Source: Nitrospinota bacterium (GTDB lineage: Bacteria > 2-12-FULL-45-22 > JACOWJ01). Taken from it: a DNA stretch of 22,032 nt. Under the pieces are notes generated by a model, which saw only the letters and a list, made by a program, of their open reading frames with translations, made no database searches and was not told where the DNA came from. Below are positions 1,086 through 21,702 of the stretch, piece after piece. Numbering within the stretch: position 1 is the first letter of the stretch; the number at the start of each line of letters is the position of its first letter. The stretch spans positions 1 through 22,032 of the forward strand of contig JACOWJ010000037.1 of NCBI GenBank assembly GCA_016176845.1, given 5' to 3'. A program made the translations under genes and the position numbers.

Positions 1086-1420
1086 TTCCTTTCCATGCCA
1101 TCTTTTTCAGCTTGTTGGGTCACCTGGATCCTCTGAAGCGGAAACGCATGGGATTCATCAGCGCCATTGGCATCCTTACAGCTAACGAGATTCCCTGGTT
1201 TGCGAGGGACTCTCAGAAATTCCCGGCGGGAAAGCCGTCAGCGACCCAGAGCCCGGTGGGGTCGTGGAAATCGCTGATCACTCCTCAGCCTTAGAGCTGC
1301 GTCAAGCCAAGAAGTCGTCATGGAAGGTCGGCATCGTCTTCCGTCGTGGTCTGAAGTCCTGGTAGAATCTCTGGCGATCGAATTTCACTAGGAGAAGGAT
1401 CGGCAGAATTTCTGAATGCC
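1086..1420. repeat. Duplicated leader upstream of DUF1329 paralogue 1
   Basis: This gene-free stretch resembles the leader of paralogue 2 (3240-3710). Both contain TTTGCGAGG close to CTCAGAAATTCCCGG, and both end with GGTCGGCATCGTCTTCC, then GAAGTCCTGG, AGGAGAAGGATCGGCA and TTTCTGAATGCCCTCC. A shorter match to the leader of paralogue 3 (near 6030-6060) includes a TTGTTGGGTCA/TCGTTGGGTCA block. The duplication unit therefore included upstream DNA, probably the promoter. I cannot assign the promoter boxes. Confidence 0.65.
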
Positions 1421-1557
1421 CTCCTTGTCGCTGCGCTCCATTGAAAATTGGAAATTGGAAAGTGTAAATTGAAAAAGTTGGGATACACGTCTTCTTCCAT
1501 TTTACAATTTCCAATCTTAAATTTTCAATTTCTATTCGCTCTTGTACGAAGATAGCA
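1421..1557. repeat. ATTGAAA-heptamer inverted-repeat element, copy 1
   Basis: The left border is CTCCTTGTCGCTGCGCTCC, followed by ATTGAAA-type heptamers, then a middle part containing ATACACGTCTTCTTCCATTTT, and a right arm of the complementary TTTCAAT type. The right end has a degenerate version of the border hairpin (GCTCTT...AAGATAGC). It lies directly beside copy 2 in the same orientation. Confidence 0.8.
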
Positions 1558-1560
1558 TCA

Positions 1561-1696
1561 CCTCCTTGTCGCTGCGCTCCATTGAAAATTGAAAATTGGA
1601 AATTGCAAATTGAAAAAATTAGGATACACGTCTTCTTCCATTTTACAATTTTCAATTTTCAATTTTCAATTGCGTCCTTCTCCGAAGGTCGCTAGC
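1561..1696. repeat. ATTGAAA-heptamer inverted-repeat element, copy 2, abutting a stop codon
   Basis: The left border CCTCCTTGTCGCTGCGCTCC is followed by about five heptamers with a 7-bp period (ATTGAAA, ATTGGAA, ATTGCAA). A short middle follows, then a TTTTCAA-type right arm ending at 1671. The right end GCGTCCTTC-TCC-GAAGGTCGC (1673-1693) is a hairpin with one mismatch. It overlaps the TAG stop (1692-1694) of the reverse-strand DUF1329 gene. No T-run follows the hairpin on the transcribed strand, so it is not a classic intrinsic terminator. Confidence 0.85.
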
Positions 1697-3239
1697 TTGT
1701 GGGGAACTTCACCGGCAGGGGCTTGCCCTGGATAAAAGCCGGCCGGAAATTGCGCCGGACCGGGACCATCTTGCCGCCCTTGCGGACCATCCCGTCCCCA
1801 TTCATCATGGCATCGACCTCCTCATCGGTGAAGCCATGCTCCTTCCAGATTTTGGTCATGTAGTCCATGTCCTCCTTGGAGTTCGCCATCCAGTCGCTGG
1901 TCCCCTTGCGGTACTTGGGGAACTTGGCCCGGTAAAGCTCCGGGGGAGGGGCGAAATCCTTGGTGCTCTTTAACAAGGGGATCCTCAGCTTCTTCCAGAA
2001 ATACTCCCGGAAGAGGTGGTCCGGGGTGAACCAGTCGTCGGGGACCTTTGCCTTGGGGCCCAGCTCGGCCCGGTCGTAAGAGCCCCAGGCGCGGAAGTGC
2101 CTCCGGTAATCGTATATGGTGTATTGCGTCCGGTTCATGCCCCCGTTGACGAAACCGCCGGCGAAGAACTCGGGGTTCATGGAGAAGCCGCCCTTGATCA
2201 GCCGGTTGTCATGGTCGTACTGTTCCTCCCGGATGGGAGCCTTGGTGACCTTCTCGACCCAGGTAAGCCGGTACTTCAAGTAGTAGTCCTTGGGGTTAGG
2301 GAAGACGTGAGAGCCGAACTTCTCCGTCCGCCTGGCCCACTGGCTCAAGACCACCCAGCACTCGATCCCCCCGTCGGGCCGGTAGGGGCTGATCTTCTCC
2401 TCGCCCCGGCTCGTGTCCGCGTTCTTGGCCAGCCACTCGCCGTCCTTCTTGATGTCGCCGGTATTCTCGGCGCGGTCCGGAGCGACGATCTGGGGGTCGA
2501 GCATCTGCATGTAGAGGACGTCCTCGCCGATGAGCATATGCTCCTCTTCCCAGATGTTGCGCTCCCCGTTGTCATCGCCGGTGAGCGGCGTTCCCAGGAT
2601 CTCGTCCTGCCGGTCCCCCCCTTGGGAGCGGACGACCCTGCGCAGGCCCGGGGAGTAGTTCCAGGTGTCTGACATCTTCCACTTGACGACGGGGCTGTTC
2701 AAATAGACCAGCTTGACCTGGGAGGTCCCCCGGACGTCGGCGGGGGTCTCGTAGATCACCAGGAACTTGTTCATCAGGCCACCGGCCTTTACCTTGCCGC
2801 CTTTGTCATCGTCGAACTGCATCACGTCGAGGTAGTTGTCGTAGGTAACCTCCCGGAGGGCATAGCCCTTCCGCTGGGTCAGCAGCCCCCGCCGGTTCAG
2901 CCGGGCCGAGTTGGCGGCATAGTTTGAATACCTGCTCGAGTAGAACTTGTGGTCATCGGTGGCAAAGTACATCAGCATGGTGGCCGAGTAAGGCTGCTTC
3001 CAGGGATATTCCCCTTTGGGCTGCCAGGGGCGGGTGGAGTGACCCAGGGGGTCTTTGATGGGAGTGGGGTATTCGATCCAGGTTTGTTTGGATACGTCGA
3101 TATAGTCCCCCTGGCCGTACGCGATAGTTCCCGGGGGTGCCCCCTGAGAAAGCAGAGGGAACGCCAGCAGGAAAGCCAGCAGCAGACCTACTGAAAGGCA
3201 GATTCTTGAATTCATGATCTTCATCTTCTCCATCTCCAT
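1692..3239 (-). CDS. DUF1329 family periplasmic protein, paralogue 2
   Basis: This is a complete DUF1329 protein of about 515 residues, within the usual family length of about 450-520. The start is placed at MEMEKMKIMNSR by analogy with paralogue 1. The frame stays open another 27 codons upstream, but that extension is not shared by the paralogues; the later ATG at MNSRIC is also possible. A signal peptide (VGLLLAFLLAFPLLSQGAPPG) precedes the mature part, which opens with GQGDYIDVSKQT. Shared blocks include YETPADVRGTSQVKLVYLN, SQGGDRQDEILGTPLTGDD, EEEHMLIGEDVLYM and a C-terminal HGFTDEEVDAMMNGDG. Aromatic and charged residues dominate, as expected for a LolA-like lipid-handling fold. It stands between copies of the heptamer repeat and in the same direction as the RND, YCF48 and LolA-like genes, suggesting a role in one export pathway. 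The substrate cannot be read from sequence. Confidence 0.93.
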   Translation of the reverse strand: MEMEKMKIMNSRICLSVGLLLAFLLAFPLLSQGAPPGTIAYGQGDYIDVSKQTWIEYPTPIKDPLGHSTRPWQPKGEYPWKQPYSATMLMYFATDDHKFYSSRYSNYAANSARLNRRGLLTQRKGYALREVTYDNYLDVMQFDDDKGGKVKAGGLMNKFLVIYETPADVRGTSQVKLVYLNSPVVKWKMSDTWNYSPGLRRVVRSQGGDRQDEILGTPLTGDDNGERNIWEEEHMLIGEDVLYMQMLDPQIVAPDRAENTGDIKKDGEWLAKNADTSRGEEKISPYRPDGGIECWVVLSQWARRTEKFGSHVFPNPKDYYLKYRLTWVEKVTKAPIREEQYDHDNRLIKGGFSMNPEFFAGGFVNGGMNRTQYTIYDYRRHFRAWGSYDRAELGPKAKVPDDWFTPDHLFREYFWKKLRIPLLKSTKDFAPPPELYRAKFPKYRKGTSDWMANSKEDMDYMTKIWKEHGFTDEEVDAMMNGDGMVRKGGKMVPVRRNFRPAFIQGKPLPVKFPTS

Positions 3240-3760
3240 CTTCAGCTCTCTTGGAAATTGGATCATCATTGGGCGGAAACCCTTGGAGCTCATCTGCGCC
3301 TGTAGCGCCCGTAGGTCCATTGAAATTCCCTGGTTTGCGAGGAACCCTCAGAAATTCCCGGCTCATAGTCCTTAGCGATCCGTTGCCCCGTGGAGTCATG
3401 AATCGCTGAGCACACTCTTCGGCCTAAGACGATTTCTTAAAAAGAAAATCCCTCTGTTGTGGGGATTGCTTCGCTTCGCTCGCAATGACAAAATATTGGG
3501 TCATTGCGAGGAGCGCTAGCGACGAAGCAATCTCAACAGAGGTATAACCTTTCCCAGAAATCGCCTAAGAACCCCGTCATGTCAAAAAATCAAAATGGGT
3601 CGGGAGGGTCGGCATCGTCTTCCAACGTCGGCTGAAGTCCTGGCAAAATCCCTGGTCACCAGCATCTCAAGGAGAAGGATCGGCAAAATTTCTGAATGCC
3701 CTCCAGTTCGTCAAGCCGTAAACCGGCTAACTTTTTGCTGCTTACCGCTTCCTTCTTCCT
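3240..3760. other. Leader of DUF1329 paralogue 2, interrupted by an inserted repeat
   Basis: The parts at 3240-3430 and 3594-3710 align in order with the leader of paralogue 1 (1086-1420). Between them about 150 bp is present only here, including the palindromic repeat at 3451-3542. No convincing gene is present in this stretch; the open frame that starts at 3595 is repeat-derived. Confidence 0.6.
3451..3542. repeat. Long imperfect palindrome of the TCATTGCGAGGAGCG type
   Basis: The left arm runs CCTCTGTTG...ATTGCTTCG...CAATGAC (3451-3489). The right arm runs GTCATTGCGAGGAGCG, CGACGAAGCAATCTC and AACAGAGG (3500-3542). They pair over most of their length with a loop of about 10 nt. Repeats with this core are a known type of intergenic palindrome in several bacterial groups (recalled, not searched). 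Its absence from the matching leader of paralogue 1 marks it as an insertion or a selective loss. Confidence 0.8.
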
Positions 3761-3875
3761 ACCCTCATATAGCCATCACCCCCTTGTCCCTCTTCTCTCC
3801 ATTGAAAATTGAAAAACTTGTGAGACGCACGTCTTCTTCCATTTTGCAATTTCCAATCTTCAATTTCCAATTTTA
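3761..3875. repeat. ATTGAAA-heptamer element, copy 3, abutting hicA
   Basis: It starts with ACCCTCATATAGCCATCACC (also found at copy 6), then a diverged border CCTTGTCCCTCTTCTCTCC, two heptamers, the shared middle CACGTCTTCTTCCATTTTGC and a right arm AATTTCCAATCTTCAATTTCC. It ends one base before the hicA stop codon (3877-3879). The terminal GC hairpin seen in copies 2, 4 and 6 is missing here. Confidence 0.75.
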
Positions 3876-3876
3876 A

Positions 3877-4092
3877 CTAAGCCTTATTCCATTCCTCATC
3901 CGTTATGCCGGCTTGCCTGAGTATCTCTCTAACCAGGCTTACATCAAGATCTCCAGATCCATGAGGATTGGGGATACGGATCTTCTTCTTCCCTTTTATC
4001 ATAAACTGATGTCTTCCACCAGAGAAAGGACCTTCATATTCAAGAGATCTAAACTTCCTAATCAATTCTTTTCTTGAAATATTAAAAGGCAT
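3877..4092 (-). CDS. hicA: HicA family toxin (mRNA interferase)
   Basis: This 71-residue protein has the HicA double-stranded-RNA-binding-like fold. It opens with SRKELIRKFRSLEYE, followed by the GGRHQFMIKGKKKIRIPNPH core that carries the family's catalytic histidine. It ends with the typical HGSGDLDVSLVREILRQAGI helix. HicA toxins cleave mRNA and are neutralised by HicB. The ATG follows the hicB TAA with no gap (TAAATG), so the two are translationally coupled in the hicB-hicA order. The pair is markedly more AT-rich than the flanking DUF1329 genes and is bracketed by repeat copies 3 and 4, consistent with acquisition by transfer. Length and motifs are normal, so it looks intact. Confidence 0.9.
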   Translation of the reverse strand: MPFNISRKELIRKFRSLEYEGPFSGGRHQFMIKGKKKIRIPNPHGSGDLDVSLVREILRQAGITDEEWNKA

Positions 4093-4338
4093 TTAAGGAG
4101 TTGCCGCTTCTTTTATCTGTAAGCTAATCCCTTCAATTTCTGGAACAGGTTCATTATCTCTAAGCTTTAGAACTAACCATTCTTCTAAAACCTCTAAAAG
4201 CTCTGTCCTACACTCCTCCACCGTATGTCCATTGGCCCATACGCCCTCAAAGCCTGGAATTTCAGCAAACCAGGTACCATCATCTAACTTTTTATATTCT
4301 GCCTTTTCCAAGACCTTCTTTGTGTATTCAAATAACAT
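4093..4338 (-). CDS. hicB: HicB family antitoxin
   Basis: This 81-residue protein has the HicB N-terminal partial RNase H-like fold: YKKLDDGTWFAEIPGFEGVW, then ANGHTVEECRTELLEVLEEW. That is the usual strand-strand-helix pattern of antitoxins that block HicA. It is a short form. After the helix comes only a tail (LKLRDNEPVPEIEGISLQIK) and no helix-turn-helix or ribbon-helix-helix domain, so how it would autoregulate is unclear. The start is well supported by AGGAGG five bases before the ATG. That AGGAGG lies at the border of repeat copy 4. It is the upstream gene of the pair. Confidence 0.9.
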   Translation of the reverse strand: MLFEYTKKVLEKAEYKKLDDGTWFAEIPGFEGVWANGHTVEECRTELLEVLEEWLVLKLRDNEPVPEIEGISLQIKEAATP

Positions 4339-4343
4339 GTTTA

Positions 4344-4484
4344 CCTCCTGTCGCTGCGCTCCATTGAAAATTGAAAATTGAAAATTTTAAATTGTAAAGC
4401 ATTTATCTGGCATTTTCTTTACATTTTGCAATTTTCAATTTTCAATTTTCAATTTTCAATGGCGACCTTCTCCGAAGGTCGCTA
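4344..4484. repeat. ATTGAAA-heptamer element, copy 4, between hicB and a DUF1329 stop codon
   Basis: The left border CCTCCTGTCGCTGCGCTCC supplies the AGGAGG ribosome site of hicB on the reverse strand. ATTGAAA heptamers, a different middle (about 4390-4425) and four TTTTCAA-type units follow. The right end GCGACCTTC-TCC-GAAGGTCGC (4462-4482) is a perfect 9-bp hairpin. It overlaps the TAG stop of DUF1329 paralogue 3 (4482-4484) by one base. Confidence 0.87.
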
Positions 4485-6008
4485 GCTCGTAGGGAACTTC
4501 ACCGGCAGGGGCTTGCCATGGATATGGGCCGGCCGGAAGTTGCGCCGGACCGGGACGACCTTGCCGCCCTTGCGGATCACCCCATCCCCATTCATCATGG
4601 CATCGATCTCCTCGTCGGTGAAGCCATGATCCTTCCAGGTCTTGGTTATATACTCCATGTCCTCCTGGGGGAGCCAATCGCTCGCCCCCTTGCGGTACTT
4701 GGGGAACTTGGTCCGGAAGAGCTCGGGAGCAGGAACGAACTCCTTGGGGCTCTTCATCATGGGGACCTTCACCTTCCTCCAGAAGTATTCCCGGAACATG
4801 TGGTCAGGGGTGTACCAATCATCGGGGGCCTTGGCCTTGGGACCCACGTCGGCCCGGTCGTACGTTCCCCAGGAGCGGAATTGCCTTCGGTAGTCGTACA
4901 TGATGTATTGCGTCCGGTTGTTGCCGCCATTGACGAACCCGCCCGCATAGTATTCCGGGTTGAGGGAGAAGCCGTGCTTGATCAGCCGGCCGTCATGGTC
5001 GTACTGCTCCTCCCGGATGGGGGTCTTGGTAACCTTCTCAACCCAGGTGATCCGGTACTTCAGATAATAGTCCTTCGGGTCGGGGAAGATCTGGGAGCCA
5101 AACTTCTCCGTCCGTTTAGCCCACTGGCTCAAGACCACCCAGCACTCGACCCCCCCATCGGGCCGGTAGGGGCTCATCAGCTCCTGACCCCGGTTGGGGT
5201 CCAGGTTCCTGGCCAGCCACTCGCCGTCCTTCTTGAAGTCGCCCGTGTTGAACATCCGGTCCGGGGCGATCATCTGGGGGTCGAGCATCTCCATGTAGAG
5301 GACGTCCTCGCCGATGAGCATGTGCTCCTCCTCCCAGACGTTCCGATCTCCCTCGTCGTCACCCGTAACCGGCGTCCCCAGGATCTCGTCCTGCCGGTCT
5401 CCCCCCTGGGAGCGGTTGATCCTGCGGAGGCCCGGGGAGTAAGTCCAGGTGTCCGACATCCTCCATTTGGCCACGGGACTGTTCAGATGGATGAGCTTGG
5501 TCTGGGAGGTCCCCCGGACATCGGCGGGGGTCTCGTAGATCAGCATGGACTTGAGCATCACGCCGCCAGCCCCCACCTTGCCGCCTTTGTCCTCGTCGAA
5601 CTGCATCAGATCGAGGTAGTTGTCGTACGAGGCTTCCCGGACGGCGTAGGCCTTCCGCTGGGTCAACAGCCCCCGCTTGTTCAGCCGGGCCGAGATCGCG
5701 GAGTAGTTCTGAAACTTGGCGCTGTAAAGCCTCTTGTCTGGGGCAAAGTACATCAGCATGGTGGCCGAGTAAGGCTGCTTCCAGGGATATTCCCCCTTGG
5801 GCTGCCACGGGCGGGTGGCATGGCCCAGGGGATCCTTGATGGGCGTGGGATACTCCTTCCAGGTTTGTTTGGATACGTCGAGATAATCCCCCTGCCCGTA
5901 CGCGATCACTCCCGGGGGCGCCCCCGGGGAGAGTGCGGGAAATGCCAGCAGAGAGGCCAACAACAGGCCTACCGAAAGGCAAATTTTCGTGTTCATGATC
6001 TTCTCCAT
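4482..6008 (-). CDS. DUF1329 family periplasmic protein, paralogue 3
   Basis: This complete DUF1329 protein has about 508 residues from the start MEKIMNTK; MNTKICLSVGL four codons later has a better-spaced GGAG. An upstream extension to 6107 is open but not conserved and runs into a repeat. A signal peptide (VGLLLASLLAFPALSPGAPPG) is followed by GQGDYLDVSKQTWKEYPTP and the same ordered blocks as paralogue 2, most residues being identical. It differs by local substitutions and by a C-terminal gap (DWLPQEDMEYITKTW against DWMANSKEDMDYMTKIW). It is the paralogue nearest the RND exporter, after a repeat-filled spacer. Like the others it probably works in the periplasm or at the outer membrane, handing on a hydrophobic cargo. 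That is inferred from family context, not shown by motifs. Confidence 0.93.
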   Translation of the reverse strand: MEKIMNTKICLSVGLLLASLLAFPALSPGAPPGVIAYGQGDYLDVSKQTWKEYPTPIKDPLGHATRPWQPKGEYPWKQPYSATMLMYFAPDKRLYSAKFQNYSAISARLNKRGLLTQRKAYAVREASYDNYLDLMQFDEDKGGKVGAGGVMLKSMLIYETPADVRGTSQTKLIHLNSPVAKWRMSDTWTYSPGLRRINRSQGGDRQDEILGTPVTGDDEGDRNVWEEEHMLIGEDVLYMEMLDPQMIAPDRMFNTGDFKKDGEWLARNLDPNRGQELMSPYRPDGGVECWVVLSQWAKRTEKFGSQIFPDPKDYYLKYRITWVEKVTKTPIREEQYDHDGRLIKHGFSLNPEYYAGGFVNGGNNRTQYIMYDYRRQFRSWGTYDRADVGPKAKAPDDWYTPDHMFREYFWRKVKVPMMKSPKEFVPAPELFRTKFPKYRKGASDWLPQEDMEYITKTWKDHGFTDEEIDAMMNGDGVIRKGGKVVPVRRNFRPAHIHGKPLPVKFPTS

Positions 6009-6087
6009 TCTCGTTTTCAGCCTCAGCTTTCCAGGTCGTTGGGTCATCTTAGACAGCAGCGGATTAGATCCATTGGTGTCAGCAGTG

Positions 6088-6160
6088 GCCTTGTCGCTAC
6101 GCTCCATTGGAAATTGGAAATTGAAAATTGGAAATTGAAAATTTTAAATTGAAAAAACAT
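6088..6160. repeat. ATTGAAA-heptamer element, copy 5 (left half only)
   Basis: The border CCTTGTCGCTACGCTCC is followed by seven or eight heptamers (ATTGGAA/ATTGAAA) and then ends. There is no right arm or border hairpin. The sequence instead runs into the palindromic element at 6180-6308, which may have replaced the right half. Confidence 0.7.
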
Positions 6161-6179
6161 GGGTTTCCTTTACATTTAA

Positions 6180-6308
6180 CGTATAGGAAGTTCCATTTTT
6201 TTCAGATTCCTCAGTCGCTATCGCTTCTTCGGAATGACAGGTTCTACGACTGTCATTCTGAGCGAAGCGAGGAATCTAAGTTCAACAATCTCCAATAATG
6301 GAATTTCC
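6180..6308. repeat. Composite palindromic element (possible miniature mobile element)
   Basis: The outer ends GGAAGTTCCATT (6186-6197) and AATGGAATTTCC (6297-6308) are inverted repeats with one wobble pair. Inside them, AGATTCCTC...GGAATGACAG (6204-6240) pairs with CTGTCATTCTGAGCGAAGCG and AGGAATCT (6250-6277). The start CGTATAGGAAGTTCC also occurs, as CGTATAGGAATTTCC, at 15946 and 21359. A right inner arm like this one recurs at 21415. Confidence 0.7.
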
Positions 6309-6344
6309 CAGTTTTGAGGAGCACTTACGGGATCAAGTTCTCAC

Positions 6345-6475
6345 ACCCTCATATCGCATCACCACCTTGTCGCTGCGCTCCATTGAAAATTGTAAATTGT
6401 GAAACGCATGCTTTCTTATCATTTTGAAATTTTCAATTTTCAATTTTCAATTGCGACGTTCTCCGAACGTCGCTA
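6345..6475. repeat. ATTGAAA-heptamer element, copy 6, abutting the RND exporter stop codon
   Basis: It begins ACCCTCATATCGCATCACC, then CCTTGTCGCTGCGCTCC, two heptamers, a short middle, and a right arm of TTTTCAA units. The end GCGACGTTC-TCC-GAACGTCGC (6453-6473) is a perfect hairpin overlapping the exporter's TAG by one base. Compared with copy 4, one stem pair has changed on both sides (C/G to G/C), keeping the pairing. Confidence 0.87.
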
Positions 6476-8857
6476 CCGGTTTCCGTAGATGAACTTGGGC
6501 TTCCACCAGTGGATCAGGGCGGGCAGCAGGATGATCGACCCGAGCATGTTGGCGGTCAGCACCACCGCCAGCATCCCTCCCAGGATCGCCTGGAATCGGA
6601 TGGCCGACCAGAGGAGGACGAACACCCCCATGGCGATGGCCATGGCGGTGAAGAAGACCGCCTTCCCGGCGTTGGTCAGGGTCTCGTGGTGCATCTCCTC
6701 GATGCTCTTGCCGGCCCGCTTCTCCTCCAGCATGCGGCTGATGATGTAGAGGGTATAGTCCACCCCCAGCCCCATGCCCAACGAGGCGACCGGCACGGTG
6801 TAAATGAAGAGGCCGATCTCCCCAAACCCCATGGTGGCGAAGGTGATCAGCGTCCCCAGCGCCAGGACCACCATCACGATCAGGCCGGCCATGATCGACC
6901 GGAACGTCAGGAGGACGAAAAGGAGAACCACGATCGAGATCTGCCAGAGGGACTCGATCTGGCTCTTCTTGATCGTCTCCATGATGGCCGAGAAGACCCC
7001 TAACACCCCCCCTGCCTGTACGAGCTTCGCAGGTGCCTTGCCATCGTGGTTCTTCTGGATCCATTCGTTCGTGTCATCGATGATGCTGTGGATGGTGCTG
7101 GCCTTGTGGTCCCGCACGTAGAACTGGATGTTTCCCTCCCCGAAGTCCATTTCGAAGTAAGGCTGCGAGTCCTCCGGCCCCCCGCCCTCGATGAACTTCA
7201 GCAGATACTCATAGGTCATGCCCCGTTGCTTGGGCAGGAAGAAGAAGCGCGGGTCGGCATCGTGCTGGGCCTTGTTGTAGGCCTTGAGGACATCGGTATA
7301 CCCCAGGGAGCCGCTCACCTCGGGCCGGTCCTCCAGGTGCGCCACCAGGGCCGCAACCTGCTTGGTTACCGCCGGCTCGGTGAGGGGCCCCTCGACCTTC
7401 TCCTTCTCCCCTTGGATGTAAACGTTGTAAGTAGAGGTCCCGAAGAAGCGCTGGTTGACGAATTTGTCGGCGATATTGTACTCCGAGTCAGCCCAAAAGA
7501 GGGGCGAGCCCTCCTGCAGGTCGCCCACCACCACGTAAGTGGTCCCCACGATGGTCAACAGCACCATGGCGAACGAGACCCCCAGGACCGCCACCCGGGG
7601 CTTTGGGGAGAAGGAGAGGTGGGCGACCTTAGCCATGATCCCCTTGAAGATCCGATCGCGGCCATGAATACGCGCCATCTCTTTCTTGGTCGGGGGAGGG
7701 ATGATGGCCACGAAGGCGTGGATGAAAACGGTGGTGGTGAAGAAGATCCGGAGGACGCCGAAACAGGCCGAGGTGGCCATCTGCTGCAGGAGCGCGAAGG
7801 GGATGAAGAAAAGGGTGGCAAAGCCCGCCCCATCGGTCACAATCGAGGCCACGCTGGGGATGGTCAGGCCCTTCAACGTTTCCTCGGCGGCTTTCTGATT
7901 GTCCCCCCACTTGTCGTACTCCTCGTAGAAGCGGCTGATGATCTGGACGCAGTGGCTCACCTCCATGGCCATGATCATGAAGGGGACGATGATGGTCATG
8001 ATGTCCATCTTCATCCCCAGCAGGTACTCGGAGCCCAGCCCCCAGGCCACGGCCACGTAGCCGGCCCACAGGGGGATGAAGATTCCCCGCCAGGTGCCGA
8101 AGGCCGCAAAGAGCAGCAGGACCGTCACCGCCAGGGCCGCTCCGAAGATGTAAACCATGTAGCCCATGTACTTGTGGAGATAACCCATCTCGTAGATCCG
8201 GCCCGCGACGTAGAAGTTATGCTTGCCGTCCTTCTCCTTCTCGATGATCTGGTTGACCCGCTTAAAGATCTCTTTGAACTCCCGCTCGTTGAAGAAGGTG
8301 ATCAGGATCACCGTGGCCTTCCGGTCCCAGGAGATCAGCCGTCCGTAAACCGCCGGGTTGCCCAGGCATTTGCGTTTGAAGTCGTGCATTTGGGTTTCCC
8401 GAGTCGCCGTATCCGAGGCGTTGATCACCCGTTCGGCCAGGACGTGATACCCCTTGATCGAGACCATGGGGTAGCCATACTCGTCGTAGCTGGTCAGGGT
8501 GTCCTTGACCCGGCTGCGAGAGGCGATCGAGATCACCTGCCCCGGGATCGTCTGAGGCATGAGATAGAGCTGCTTGCCGATCCGGTTGATCTTTGCGATC
8601 GTCTCCAGGTTGAAGACATCGCCCTGCTTCACCTCCAGGGCGACCTCGATCAATGCCCCGGTCCGGAAGACCTTCTCCATATAGTGGTTCAACTCGACGT
8701 AGGGGTGTCCCTTGGGGGCGATATCCGCCACCTCCTGGGGCAGCGTGACATAGCGCAGGAGGTAGGTAAAGTAAAACGTGATGAGCATCACCCCGATGAC
8801 GATAGGCCAGCGAAAGCGGACCACAAAAGCGGCGAACAGGTCTACGAATCGTTGCAC
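6473..8857 (-). CDS. MMPL/RND family exporter
   Basis: This 794-residue inner-membrane transporter belongs to the COG1033/MMPL branch of the RND superfamily. A first membrane helix at about residues 17-37 is followed by a large periplasmic domain to about 225. A block of helices follows (about 230-370, including GFATLFFIPFALLQQMATSA and the polar helix segment MTIIVPFMIMAMEVSHCVQI). Another helix near 420-445, a second periplasmic domain and a last helical block from about 640 (VASLGMGLGVDYTLYIISRM) complete the two-fold RND plan. Such proteins export lipids or hydrophobic small molecules using the proton gradient. The start is GTG, with AAGGAG just upstream. It begins five bases before the TAG of the YCF48 gene ends its reading, so the two are co-translated. 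The stop codon is embedded in repeat copy 6. Substrate unknown. Confidence 0.93.
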   Translation of the reverse strand: MQRFVDLFAAFVVRFRWPIVIGVMLITFYFTYLLRYVTLPQEVADIAPKGHPYVELNHYMEKVFRTGALIEVALEVKQGDVFNLETIAKINRIGKQLYLMPQTIPGQVISIASRSRVKDTLTSYDEYGYPMVSIKGYHVLAERVINASDTATRETQMHDFKRKCLGNPAVYGRLISWDRKATVILITFFNEREFKEIFKRVNQIIEKEKDGKHNFYVAGRIYEMGYLHKYMGYMVYIFGAALAVTVLLLFAAFGTWRGIFIPLWAGYVAVAWGLGSEYLLGMKMDIMTIIVPFMIMAMEVSHCVQIISRFYEEYDKWGDNQKAAEETLKGLTIPSVASIVTDGAGFATLFFIPFALLQQMATSACFGVLRIFFTTTVFIHAFVAIIPPPTKKEMARIHGRDRIFKGIMAKVAHLSFSPKPRVAVLGVSFAMVLLTIVGTTYVVVGDLQEGSPLFWADSEYNIADKFVNQRFFGTSTYNVYIQGEKEKVEGPLTEPAVTKQVAALVAHLEDRPEVSGSLGYTDVLKAYNKAQHDADPRFFFLPKQRGMTYEYLLKFIEGGGPEDSQPYFEMDFGEGNIQFYVRDHKASTIHSIIDDTNEWIQKNHDGKAPAKLVQAGGVLGVFSAIMETIKKSQIESLWQISIVVLLFVLLTFRSIMAGLIVMVVLALGTLITFATMGFGEIGLFIYTVPVASLGMGLGVDYTLYIISRMLEEKRAGKSIEEMHHETLTNAGKAVFFTAMAIAMGVFVLLWSAIRFQAILGGMLAVVLTANMLGSIILLPALIHWWKPKFIYGNR

Positions 8858-15918: not shown

Positions 15919-15945
15919 CGCTTCGCCCTCCTAAGATAAGCTCAT

Positions 15946-15965
15946 CGTATAGGAATTTCCTTTTT
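15946..15965. repeat. CGTATAGGAATTTCC repeat, copy 2
   Basis: This short sequence, followed by TTTTT, matches the starts of the elements at 6180 and 21359. It lies just upstream of the class V aminotransferase start. Confidence 0.6.
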
Positions 15966-15984: not shown

Positions 15985-16049
15985 GTTTTAAGTTTCAGGT
16001 TTTAAGTGTTAAGCAAGAAACCTAAAACTTAACACCTAAAACTTAAAAC
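15985..16049. repeat. TTTTAAG-heptamer inverted repeat abutting the tryptophanase stop
   Basis: The left arm GTTTTAAGTTTCAGGTTTTAAG pairs with the right arm AACACCTAAAACTTAAAAC, with mostly 7-base periodicity. The right arm ends on the base before the TAA of the reverse-strand tryptophanase gene (16050-16052). It is a second heptamer family, related in design but not in sequence to the ATTGAAA elements. Confidence 0.8.
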
Positions 16050-17429
16050 TTAGCTTCCCATCTCCTCCAGTCTGGCCGTGAAATGCCTCAGGACGGGGGC
16101 CTCATAGACCAGCTTCAGGCCCCGGACCCGATTCCGGTTCCGGAAAAGTTCGATGATCGACTCGGCCACGTAACTGATCTGCATGTTGGTATAAACCCGC
16201 CGGGGGATGGCTAACCGCACCATCTCCAGCTCCGGGCAGATGATCTTTCCCGTGGCGGGATCTTTTTTGCCGAACATCAGCGTCCCGATCTCCACTGCCC
16301 GGATCCCGTATTCCCGGTAAAGGGCCACCACCAAGGACTGGCCCGGAAACTGCTCCTGAGGGATGGCGGGCAGGAACTCCTTGGCGTTCAGGTAAACGGC
16401 ATGGCCACCGATGGGCTTGAGGATGGGAACGCCCGCGTTATCCAGCAGTTCCCCCAGGTATCGGACTTGCCCGACGCGAAACCGAAGGTACTCCTCATCC
16501 AAGACCTCCTGCAGGCCGATCGCCATCGCCTCCAGGTCTCGACCCGCCAGGCCCCCATAGGTGGGGAAGCCCTCGACCAGGATCAGCAGGTTGGTGATCT
16601 TCTCGGCCAGCTGGTCGTCATTGGTGGCGATGAAGCCTCCGATGTTGACCAGACCATCTTTCTTGGCGCTCATGGTACAGCCGTCCCCGTAACTGAAGAT
16701 CTCCCGCACAATGTCGGAGATCTTCTTGTCCTGGTAACCCGCCTCTCGCTCCTGAATAAAGAAGGCGTTTTCCGCAAAGCGGCAGGCATCGAAGAAAAGG
16801 GGGATGCCATAGCGGGAGAGAAGCAGTTTGGTCTGGCGAATATTCTCCAGCGAGACAGGTTGTCCACCGCCGCTGTTATTAGTGATCGTCAGCATCACCA
16901 GGGGGATGCGCTCCCGCCCCTCCCGCCGGATGGTCTCTGCCAGTTTCCTGAGGTCCATGTTCCCCTTGAAGGGGTGCTCCGCCTTGGGGTCGTAAGCCTC
17001 GTCGATCACCTGGTCTAGGGCGATCCCCTCGTTGTGCTCGACGTTGGCCCGGGTCGTGTCGAAGTGGATGTTGTTGGGAACGACGTCGCCCGGCCTCACC
17101 ATGCTGGTAAAAAGGAGGTTTTCGGCCATCCGTCCCTGGTGCGTGGGGATGATGTGTTTGAAGCCGAAGATGGCGTGAACCGTCTCCTCGAACCGGTAGT
17201 AGCTGCGACTGCCGGCGTATGACTCGTCCCCCACCATCAGTCCCGACCATTGCCGGTCGCTCATGGCGGCGGTGCCGCTATCCGTGAGGAGGTCGATATA
17301 AATGCTCTCGGCCGGCAGGTTGAAGACGTTATACCCGGCCTCCCGGATGAGCTGCTCGCGCTCCGGCTGTGTAGTCATCCGGAGCGGCTCGACCACTTTG
17401 ATTTTAAAGGGTTCAGCTGGAAACCTCAC
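16050..17429 (-). CDS. tnaA: Tryptophanase (beta-eliminating lyase)
   Basis: This 459-residue PLP enzyme splits tryptophan to indole, pyruvate and ammonia. The conserved blocks are IDLLTDSGTAAMSD, FGFKHIIPTHQGR, NNSGGGQPVSLENI, FFDACRFAENAFFI, and MSAKKDGLVNIGG with the PLP-binding Lys257. Two positions separate it from the sister enzyme tyrosine phenol-lyase. The lyase's phenol-specific Arg381 is Ile here (GIRAVEIGTL, as in TnaA), and His449 in VLRHFTARL matches the conserved tryptophanase histidine where the lyase has Phe. The start is GTG, with GGAGG eight bases upstream. No tnaC-like leader peptide was recognised upstream. The tryptophan permease that often accompanies tnaA is absent. Confidence 0.93.
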   Translation of the reverse strand: MRFPAEPFKIKVVEPLRMTTQPEREQLIREAGYNVFNLPAESIYIDLLTDSGTAAMSDRQWSGLMVGDESYAGSRSYYRFEETVHAIFGFKHIIPTHQGRMAENLLFTSMVRPGDVVPNNIHFDTTRANVEHNEGIALDQVIDEAYDPKAEHPFKGNMDLRKLAETIRREGRERIPLVMLTITNNSGGGQPVSLENIRQTKLLLSRYGIPLFFDACRFAENAFFIQEREAGYQDKKISDIVREIFSYGDGCTMSAKKDGLVNIGGFIATNDDQLAEKITNLLILVEGFPTYGGLAGRDLEAMAIGLQEVLDEEYLRFRVGQVRYLGELLDNAGVPILKPIGGHAVYLNAKEFLPAIPQEQFPGQSLVVALYREYGIRAVEIGTLMFGKKDPATGKIICPELEMVRLAIPRRVYTNMQISYVAESIIELFRNRNRVRGLKLVYEAPVLRHFTARLEEMGS

Positions 17430-21296: not shown

Positions 21297-21358
21297 CCGG
21301 AGCTCCTGGATTCGCTAAACTCTTGGCCGATACGACCAGACTTTGCCTGGAGCTTGAT

Positions 21359-21378
21359 CGTATAGGAATTTCCATTTT
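21359..21378. repeat. CGTATAGGAATTTCC repeat, copy 3
   Basis: CGTATAGGAATTTCCATTTT is the same sequence that starts the element at 6180. Here it is followed by a different GC-rich hairpin. Confidence 0.65.
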
Positions 21379-21442: not shown

Positions 21443-21525
21443 TTTAAGGTGTATCGGCCAGGGCCATGGGGGCTAGTGCTTAGGACTGGCGACCAAATAA
21501 CTTTCCCATGGTCGAATGGGATAAT

Positions 21526-21617
21526 AGGTTTTAAGTTTTAAGTTTTAGGTTTTAGGGCTTAAAACTTAAAACCTATAGGTTTTAGGGCTTAAAACTTAAA
21601 ACCTAAAACCTAAAACT
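21526..21617. repeat. TTTTAAG-heptamer inverted and direct repeat
   Basis: The left arm is AGGTTTTAAGTTTTAAG plus TTTTAGG units; the right arms are CTTAAAACTTAAAACC plus CTAAAACC units. A block of about 29 bp (GGTTTTAGGGCTTAAAACTT, then AAAACCTATA) occurs twice in a row. It is the same family as 15985-16049, but lies in a 400-bp spacer rather than at a stop codon. Confidence 0.8.
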
Positions 21618-21702
21618 TTCTGCAGGGAACCAAATGGGCAAGTTATTTAGTCCACGATCTTTAGTTGCATGAATCACTGCCGAAAGCAGAAGGAAAGAGG
21701 AA

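Follow-up and report, generated by a model that had tools for sequence, protein, structure and literature searches.

Heptameric repeats that sit close to the ends of genes are known from Xanthomonas (unit GGGAATC) and from Nostoc and Anabaena (GGGGAYT), where, in the excerpted text of Rehm et al. 2015 (PMC4692102), about 90% are intergenic, most lie 0-50 bp from a stop codon on the coding strand, some overlap the stop, and the function is given as unknown. A further precedent is the TAACTGA direct repeat of Beggiatoaceae, which carries stop codons in all three forward frames (MacGregor 2015; PMC4679880). Here we analyze a 22,032-nucleotide stretch from a Nitrospinota bacterium (contig JACOWJ010000037.1, C60 in our numbering; hereafter the window), which holds six copies of an element built from ATTGAAA heptamers, three of them ending in a hairpin that overlaps a stop codon. 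We favor, at a probability of roughly 0.6, the view that this repeat belongs to a set of five families of palindromic elements, all short, non-autonomous, and insertion-like, and that its crowding at stop codons is mainly what selection has left behind.

The closest published match is the Xanthomonas/Nostoc repeat. Here, too, a 7-nt period is enriched in intergenic DNA, arrays lie near or over stop codons on the coding strand, arms occur as convergent pairs, and occurrence is sporadic across genes of all functions, much as the excerpts of Rehm et al. describe. Where those excerpts present one G-rich, G-quadruplex-capable unit, however, we find five families, three of which lack G-tracts; and the hairpin cap, the in-array stops, and the in-frame inserts in essential genes that are present here are not noted in the excerpts. 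We regard the repeats described here as a variant of the same type that comprises several families, carries a structured cap, and includes in-frame copies. The Beggiatoaceae repeats resemble our arrays in being intergenic heptamers, some of which overlap the stop of the upstream gene, but they are direct only (with one inverted case), lie mostly just 5′ of start codons, and have no hairpin. In behavior there is a likeness to the Rickettsia palindromic elements (PMC10969869), short palindromic repeats that also lie in frame inside unrelated housekeeping genes; these come from a different phylum, and heptamer structure is not mentioned for them.

Five families of convergent heptamer arrays

The window belongs to a metagenome-assembled genome (MAG) of 1.53 Mb that is 68% complete. 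Its best named relative is Nitrospinae bacterium RIFCSPLOWO2_12_FULL_45_22, at 54% identity for the resistance-nodulation-division (RND) exporter encoded in the window, and the closest genome compared is from the same order, no nearer. Stretches were sampled around heptamer matches, together with 363 kb chosen blind to repeats; genes were called with a simple custom codon-usage caller, which is more reliable for stops than for starts and small genes.

Within the 363 kb sample, period-7 arrays occupy 4.35% of intergenic DNA versus 0.07% of coding DNA, while the other periods from 4 to 13 reach at most 0.2%, and periods other than 7 are in general near zero except for the multiple 14. Five units cover almost all arrays: A (ATTGRAA), B (TTTTARG), C (TAGCTCA), D (TTAGGGR), and E (ACAGGGR), of which only the last two could form G-quadruplexes. 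Chance is not a plausible source, given 10 hairpin-pattern matches and 199 heptamer-array matches in the genome against 0-1 for reversed-pattern controls. Wherever two opposed arms lie within 250 bases of one another, they converge and carry the same unit on the 5′ side (48/48), and family A arrays that follow a stop codon are in the F orientation in 40 of 42 cases, a strict polarity relative to the preceding gene. Paired arms within an element are no more alike than arms drawn from different elements (percentile 0.57, p=0.15), which speaks against co-evolving arms.

A complete copy, read 5′ to 3′ on the strand of the gene, runs from the TAG stop into a 21-base hairpin that starts on its G, then through AATTGAAAATTGAAA... 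and a core to an inverted array ending in TTTTCAATTTTCAAT, followed by GGAGCGNAGCGACA. Whole-element RNA folding gives z-scores of -6.8, -6.9, and -3.1 for the three complete copies in the window (copies 2, 4, and 6), the two arms forming a long AU-rich stem.

Copies inside essential genes argue for insertion

The best evidence that the elements insert comes from sites that are filled here and short in homologues. CarB has 98 residues where Escherichia coli CarB has 10 (query 496/595 = chain 478/489), and DnaE has 64 where the E. coli protein has 10 (617/682 = 575/586). The carB insert reads as a hairpin (GCCCCCTTCGGGGGC), F arm, R arm, and GGAGCGAAGCGAC, the right-end motif, and continues into a family E array and a motif of the GGAAATTCCTATRCGAT type; the dnaE insert spells both arms. 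The repeat-derived portions amount to 55-90 residues. Arrays also lie inside a glycolate-oxidase-like gene, an M16 peptidase gene, and one unassigned gene, so that palindromic elements are found in frame within unrelated protein genes. Families differ in this respect: 9 of 101 arrays of A and E lie inside genes, compared with 0 of 88 for B, C, and D (p=0.004), and none of families B and D, whose arms have almost no open frame, was seen there.

An origin in place is the obvious competitor, in which the arrays would be simple sequence repeats produced by polymerase slippage at a 7-base period, without mobility, and kept where selection spares them. That the period is exclusively 7, that unit number varies, and that the nearest relative and unrelated genomes share the architecture with other units would all fit, and Mrazek's slippage hypothesis, as cited in PMC4679880 and PMC4692102, also counts in its favor. 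Slippage does not alone yield convergent pairs of one fixed polarity (48:0), however, nor does it add a structured cap with a conserved loop, place two-arm units in carB and dnaE, or make the same five families recur at unrelated genes, and we regard it as unlikely.

We instead read the elements as working like Rickettsia palindromic elements, that is, as a mobile palindromic repeat, by analogy of behavior. The complete element is a hairpin-forming unit—heptamer array, spacer, and inverted array, with a fixed unit on the 5′ side—to which the ATTGAAA family adds a GNA-loop mini-hairpin at its outer ends. Such units would insert whole, presumably moved by an enzyme, and tolerance of insertions would explain why most surviving copies sit in the gap from a stop codon to the ribosome-binding site that follows. 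At the 3′ end of a gene, tolerance would follow from the period itself, since an array with a stop triplet closes every frame within 21 bases and adds merely a short tail (...ELEIEN*, ...SIGN*). Rare stop-free insertions in frame within a gene survive as protein inserts of the kind seen in CarB and DnaE.

A GC hairpin caps the ends of family A elements

Strong GC hairpins at the outer edge are a specific trait of family A, whose arrays have them at 32% of edges, versus 2.4% in shuffled flanks and 0-7% for the other families. The stems of these caps vary by locus (CTCGC/GCGAG, GCCCC/GGGGC, GCGACC/GGTCGC, CGCGC/GCGCG, and others), and the three-base loops scarcely do: 32 of 37 read GNA on one strand, and 35 have C before the loop, whereas other such hairpins elsewhere in the genome have a GNA loop in 14 of 131 cases (p=2e-18). 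DNA mini-hairpins of extraordinary stability whose GNA loops are closed by G-C pairs are known from Hirao and Yoshizawa, as described in PMC4686876. Like the caps, the d(GCGAAGC)-type structures have a C-GNA-G loop with any N and at least two G-C pairs; they are, however, oligonucleotide structures in vitro. Which strand carries GNA varies from one gene to another: the hairpins at DUF1329 genes show GGA, GCA, and TGC in the gene sense, which would favor a DNA structure over an mRNA structure.

The three hairpins in the window each have a 9-bp stem and a 3-base loop, with RNA folding energies of -9.8, -14.7, and -14.4 kcal/mol (z -3.7 to -4.8). The sequence-only reading that drew attention to this locus had located all six copies and all three hairpins correctly, save that the hairpin of copy 2 lies one base from the place given (1672-1692, not 1673-1693), and each hairpin does overlap the TAG of a reverse-strand gene and read TAGCGAC from the stop. 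The exchange of C/G for G/C on both sides of the stem between copies 4 and 6 is also real. Among seven hairpins of this type, the three in the window and four from elsewhere in the genome, paired changes occur at two positions of the stem, one between A-T and G-C and the other among three pair types (C-G, G-C, and A-T); 95% of alignment cells pair, and the covariation score was reached in 0 of 500 shuffles.

As to independence, the same reading had allowed that copies 2 and 4, behind duplicated DUF1329 genes, could be one event, and took the copy behind the RND gene as a separate one. That needs correcting. The exact hairpin type recurs at three further loci, every one at the stop of a DUF1329 paralogue, and the three window hairpins form one sub-family around the DUF1329/RND cluster, not three independent events, because five of six exact-type hairpins at stops follow DUF1329 paralogues; the common core agrees. 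Nor is TAGCGAC a fixed part of the element, for the sequences before and after other stops vary from gene to gene, which also rules out an element that supplies a conserved terminal TAG. Glycine just before the stop is mildly in excess (10/28 versus 32/295, p=0.001), an excess that shrinks without three glycine-ending DUF1329 paralogues.

The proposal of a nonstandard terminator fared poorly. A consensus scan for intrinsic terminators gives no site at any of the three hairpins, and no T-tract follows them, the post-hairpin sequence being AATTGAAA; an intrinsic terminator is ruled out at these sites. A known structured RNA is likewise ruled out, with no Rfam match in the window. The cap stands on the start side as well, immediately 5′ of the Shine-Dalgarno sequence of the following gene, and is therefore the end of the element rather than a mark of the stop.

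Pairs of short hairpins invite comparison with repetitive extragenic palindromic (REP) elements bearing GTAG/CGTC tags (PMC3733652), which resemble the caps in being short GC hairpins with variable stems, often inverted dimers, and which lie mainly between genes and sometimes within replication genes, as here. Two inverted GC hairpins around a spacer look like a REPIN, and some are preceded by GTAG. Against descent from REP or REPIN elements moved by a REP-associated tyrosine transposase (RAYT), the hairpins lack a conserved adjoining GTAG or CGTC tetranucleotide, with conservation poorest on the start side; they are attached to heptamer arms; and no RAYT was found in the genome (Y1_Tnp, PF01797, in a MAG that is 68% complete). 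We consider this origin very improbable.

Arrays crowd toward stop codons

Compared with uniform placement inside their own intergenic regions, array elements are shifted toward the stop (mean relative position 0.41, Kolmogorov–Smirnov p=8e-4) and away from the start, with family A alone at 0.35 (p=4e-5); the check bears out the earlier suggestion that copies are not placed at random relative to stop codons. The lag-7 signal climbs at the stop and is absent from the last ~28 bases before the start, save for a small rise at -14 to -7, which is the profile expected if arrays occupy the space from the stop to the ribosome-binding site. At several genes the stop codon is itself part of an array unit (TAG-CTCATAGCTCATAG; TAA-GTTTTAG). 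Seven of the 35 genes that adjoin family A arrays have TGA as their stop, and in six of these it follows an array-read tail such as ELEIEN or SIGN. Because the 7-base period equals 1 modulo 3, a stop triplet in the unit comes up in each of the three frames within three units (21 bases). Insertion within a gene mostly truncates it, at the 3′ end it costs few residues, and between genes it costs nothing, which explains much of the concentration at stops.

The same data could be taken to indicate a function at gene ends, in which the stop-adjacent GC hairpin, with the long AU-rich stem behind it, would protect the mRNA 3′ end or separate expression of co-directional neighbors. Stop-side bias, strict polarity at stops, stem covariation, strong folding, and the complete lack of family A elements between divergent genes (0/44) would be in keeping with such a role, which the sequence-only reading anticipated in proposing a repeat that targets or defines gene ends, perhaps as a 3′ mRNA stabilizer. 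Yet the three hairpins have no terminator signature, hairpins of the same type cap the start side, complete elements lie in frame inside the essential genes carB and dnaE (and an array inside the glycolate-oxidase-like gene), and the long stem has no locus-level covariation because its arms match no better within than between elements. Taken over all families, moreover, elements are equally frequent between divergent genes (6/24) and elsewhere (51/161, p=0.64). A gene-end function is, to our minds, doubtful, although a stronger contender than slippage.

That the elements are mobile, and that their crowding at stops would stem mainly from selection and not from targeting, has several observations weighing against it. 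Simple tolerance does not predict that no native TGA stop stands beside a family A array (0/28 versus 123/295, or 42%, in the genome), nor does tolerance alone predict the absence of family A between divergent genes. Among the 48 two-arm elements a single one has a flanking direct repeat beyond the null: on contig C14, the last 32 bases of a DUF1329 gene are repeated directly after a complete element (L055 2585-2617 and after 2760). Target-site duplication of the kind left by miniature inverted-repeat transposable elements (MITEs) is not found beyond that locus. The search for a REP-type transposase came back empty in the incomplete MAG, with control genomes giving matches. Finally, the nearest genome compared is from the same order only and lacks the family, and so offers no true empty site.

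Copies and neighboring genes in the window

The right-end motif CCTTGTCGCTNCGCTCC marks the six copies at 1425, 1566, ~3785 (degenerate), 4348, 6091, and 6367 (Table 1). Copy 3, which has no hairpin, ends about 1-5 bases from the hicA stop, close to the single base first proposed. Between copies 3 and 4 lies a HicA/HicB-type toxin-antitoxin pair (3877-4338), with the toxin as the downstream gene.

Table 1. Elements, hairpins, and genes, in window coordinates unless a sampled stretch (L) is given
Feature	Position	Strand	Remarks
Copy 1	1425..1530	-	Arms 1440-1475 and ~1505-1530; right-end motif 1425-1439, GGAGCGCAGCGACA on the - strand; no hairpin
Copy 2, complete element	1566..1692	-	Hairpin, arms 1636-1671 and 1581-1616, core, right-end motif 1566-1580
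Copy 2 hairpin	1672..1692	-	GCGACCTTC-GGA-GAAGGACGC; first G doubles as the last base of the DUF1329 TAG; one mismatch in the stem
Copy 3	3785..3876	-	Arms 3801-3814 and 3841-3876; no hairpin; reaches hicA stop (3877-3879)
Copy 4, complete element	4348..4482	-	From DUF1329 stop to hicB Shine-Dalgarno (AGGAGG); arms 4423-4460 and 4363-4398
Copy 4 hairpin	4462..4482	-	GCGACCTTC-GGA-GAAGGTCGC; overlaps G of TAG
Copy 5, half element	6091..6155	-	One arm (7 units) and right-end motif; a different dispersed repeat next, 6178-6300
Copy 6, complete element	6367..6473	-	3′ of MMPL/RND gene; arms 6428-6452 and 6382-6408
Copy 6 hairpin	6453..6473	-	GCGACGTTC-GGA-GAACGTCGC; overlaps G of TAG; C-G pair of copy 4 is G-C here
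Family B convergent element (TTTTARG)	15985..16058	-	Stop TAA (16050-16052) of gene 16050-17429 in phase with unit (TAAGTTTTAAG)
Family B convergent element (TTTTARG / CYTAAAA)	21525..21618	.	Not at a stop
DUF1329/LolA-like gene	1692..3269	-	C-terminus ...KPLPVKFPTS*; longest open reading frame to 3320
DUF1329/LolA-like paralogue	4482..6008	-	C-terminus identical to that of gene 1692..3269; longest open reading frame to 6107
MMPL-family RND exporter gene	6473..8857	-	
CarB gene	L061 962-4528		Repeat-derived insert between its two halves
DnaE gene	L054 661-4446		Repeat-derived insert just before finger domain

Other dispersed repeats share this landscape. Palindromic repeats at 3449-3545 and 6207-6284, of the GATTGCTTCG...GAAGCAATC and AGATTCCTC...GAGGAATCT types, contain a GAGCG(N)AGCGA motif in common with the right end of the ATTGAAA element. 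A further motif, NCGTATAGGAATTTCCWTTTT, lies at 6178-6199, 15944-15965, and 21357-21378, and in sampled stretches L108-L127 and L061. Its 46 pattern matches in the 363 kb sample, where many sites are counted twice, fall exclusively outside called genes and often next to heptamer arrays. The same-order genome has the motif too (L131, L132, L135, L147), and the carB insert contains an in-frame variant. Sigma-70-like promoter matches number 10 in 1200-6700 versus 2.7 in shuffles, with the excess held by the ATTGAAA arrays (1420-1530, 1580-1670, 4363-4460, and 6106-6155), probably a composition effect of the TTGAAA/TAAAAT units.

Heptamer arrays in other genomes

The genome from the same order has intergenic arrays of period 7, and some of period 8, with other units, some of which overlap a stop in phase; there, the RND gene orthologous to that of the window ends in an 8-mer array. 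In that genome, arrays whose period is 8 or a 7/8 mixture (TCATTAG/GGTCATTA) begin at or near stops (L078 3720-3790; L128 6091-6195; L135 9656-9930). Of 386 genomes, 6 contain the TAGCTCA/GAGCTAT unit; four of these share no rank below domain with the source genome, and in three of those four (G184, G238, and G251) convergent heptamer hairpins again lie between stop and ribosome-binding site. In another genome, G169, period-7 arrays make up 6.1% of intergenic DNA and none falls in the examined 20-350-base regions between two called genes; it was left out of the anchoring comparison.

Tentatively, hairpins of convergent heptamers placed between a stop and the ribosome-binding site that follows may represent a widespread, unrecognized class of bacterial element. 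What would be conserved across lineages is the 7-base period, the arm polarity, and the anchoring at gene ends, not the sequence of the unit; the elements would be spread or made by an enzyme, and GNA mini-hairpins would mark their ends in one family.

Implications

Heptamer repeats in bacteria have been noted for years, with no explanation so far. The genome studied here offers three handles: the in-frame copies in dnaE and carB, which point to insertion of whole units; a cap with a varying stem and a constant loop; and arrays that end reading frames. With these in hand, the question of why heptamer arrays sit at stops becomes testable in other genomes. They also bear on annotation, as the predicted proteins of such genomes contain repeat-derived stretches, both C-terminal tails (ELEIEN, for example) and inserts (for example, KLEIGN..HFPISN).

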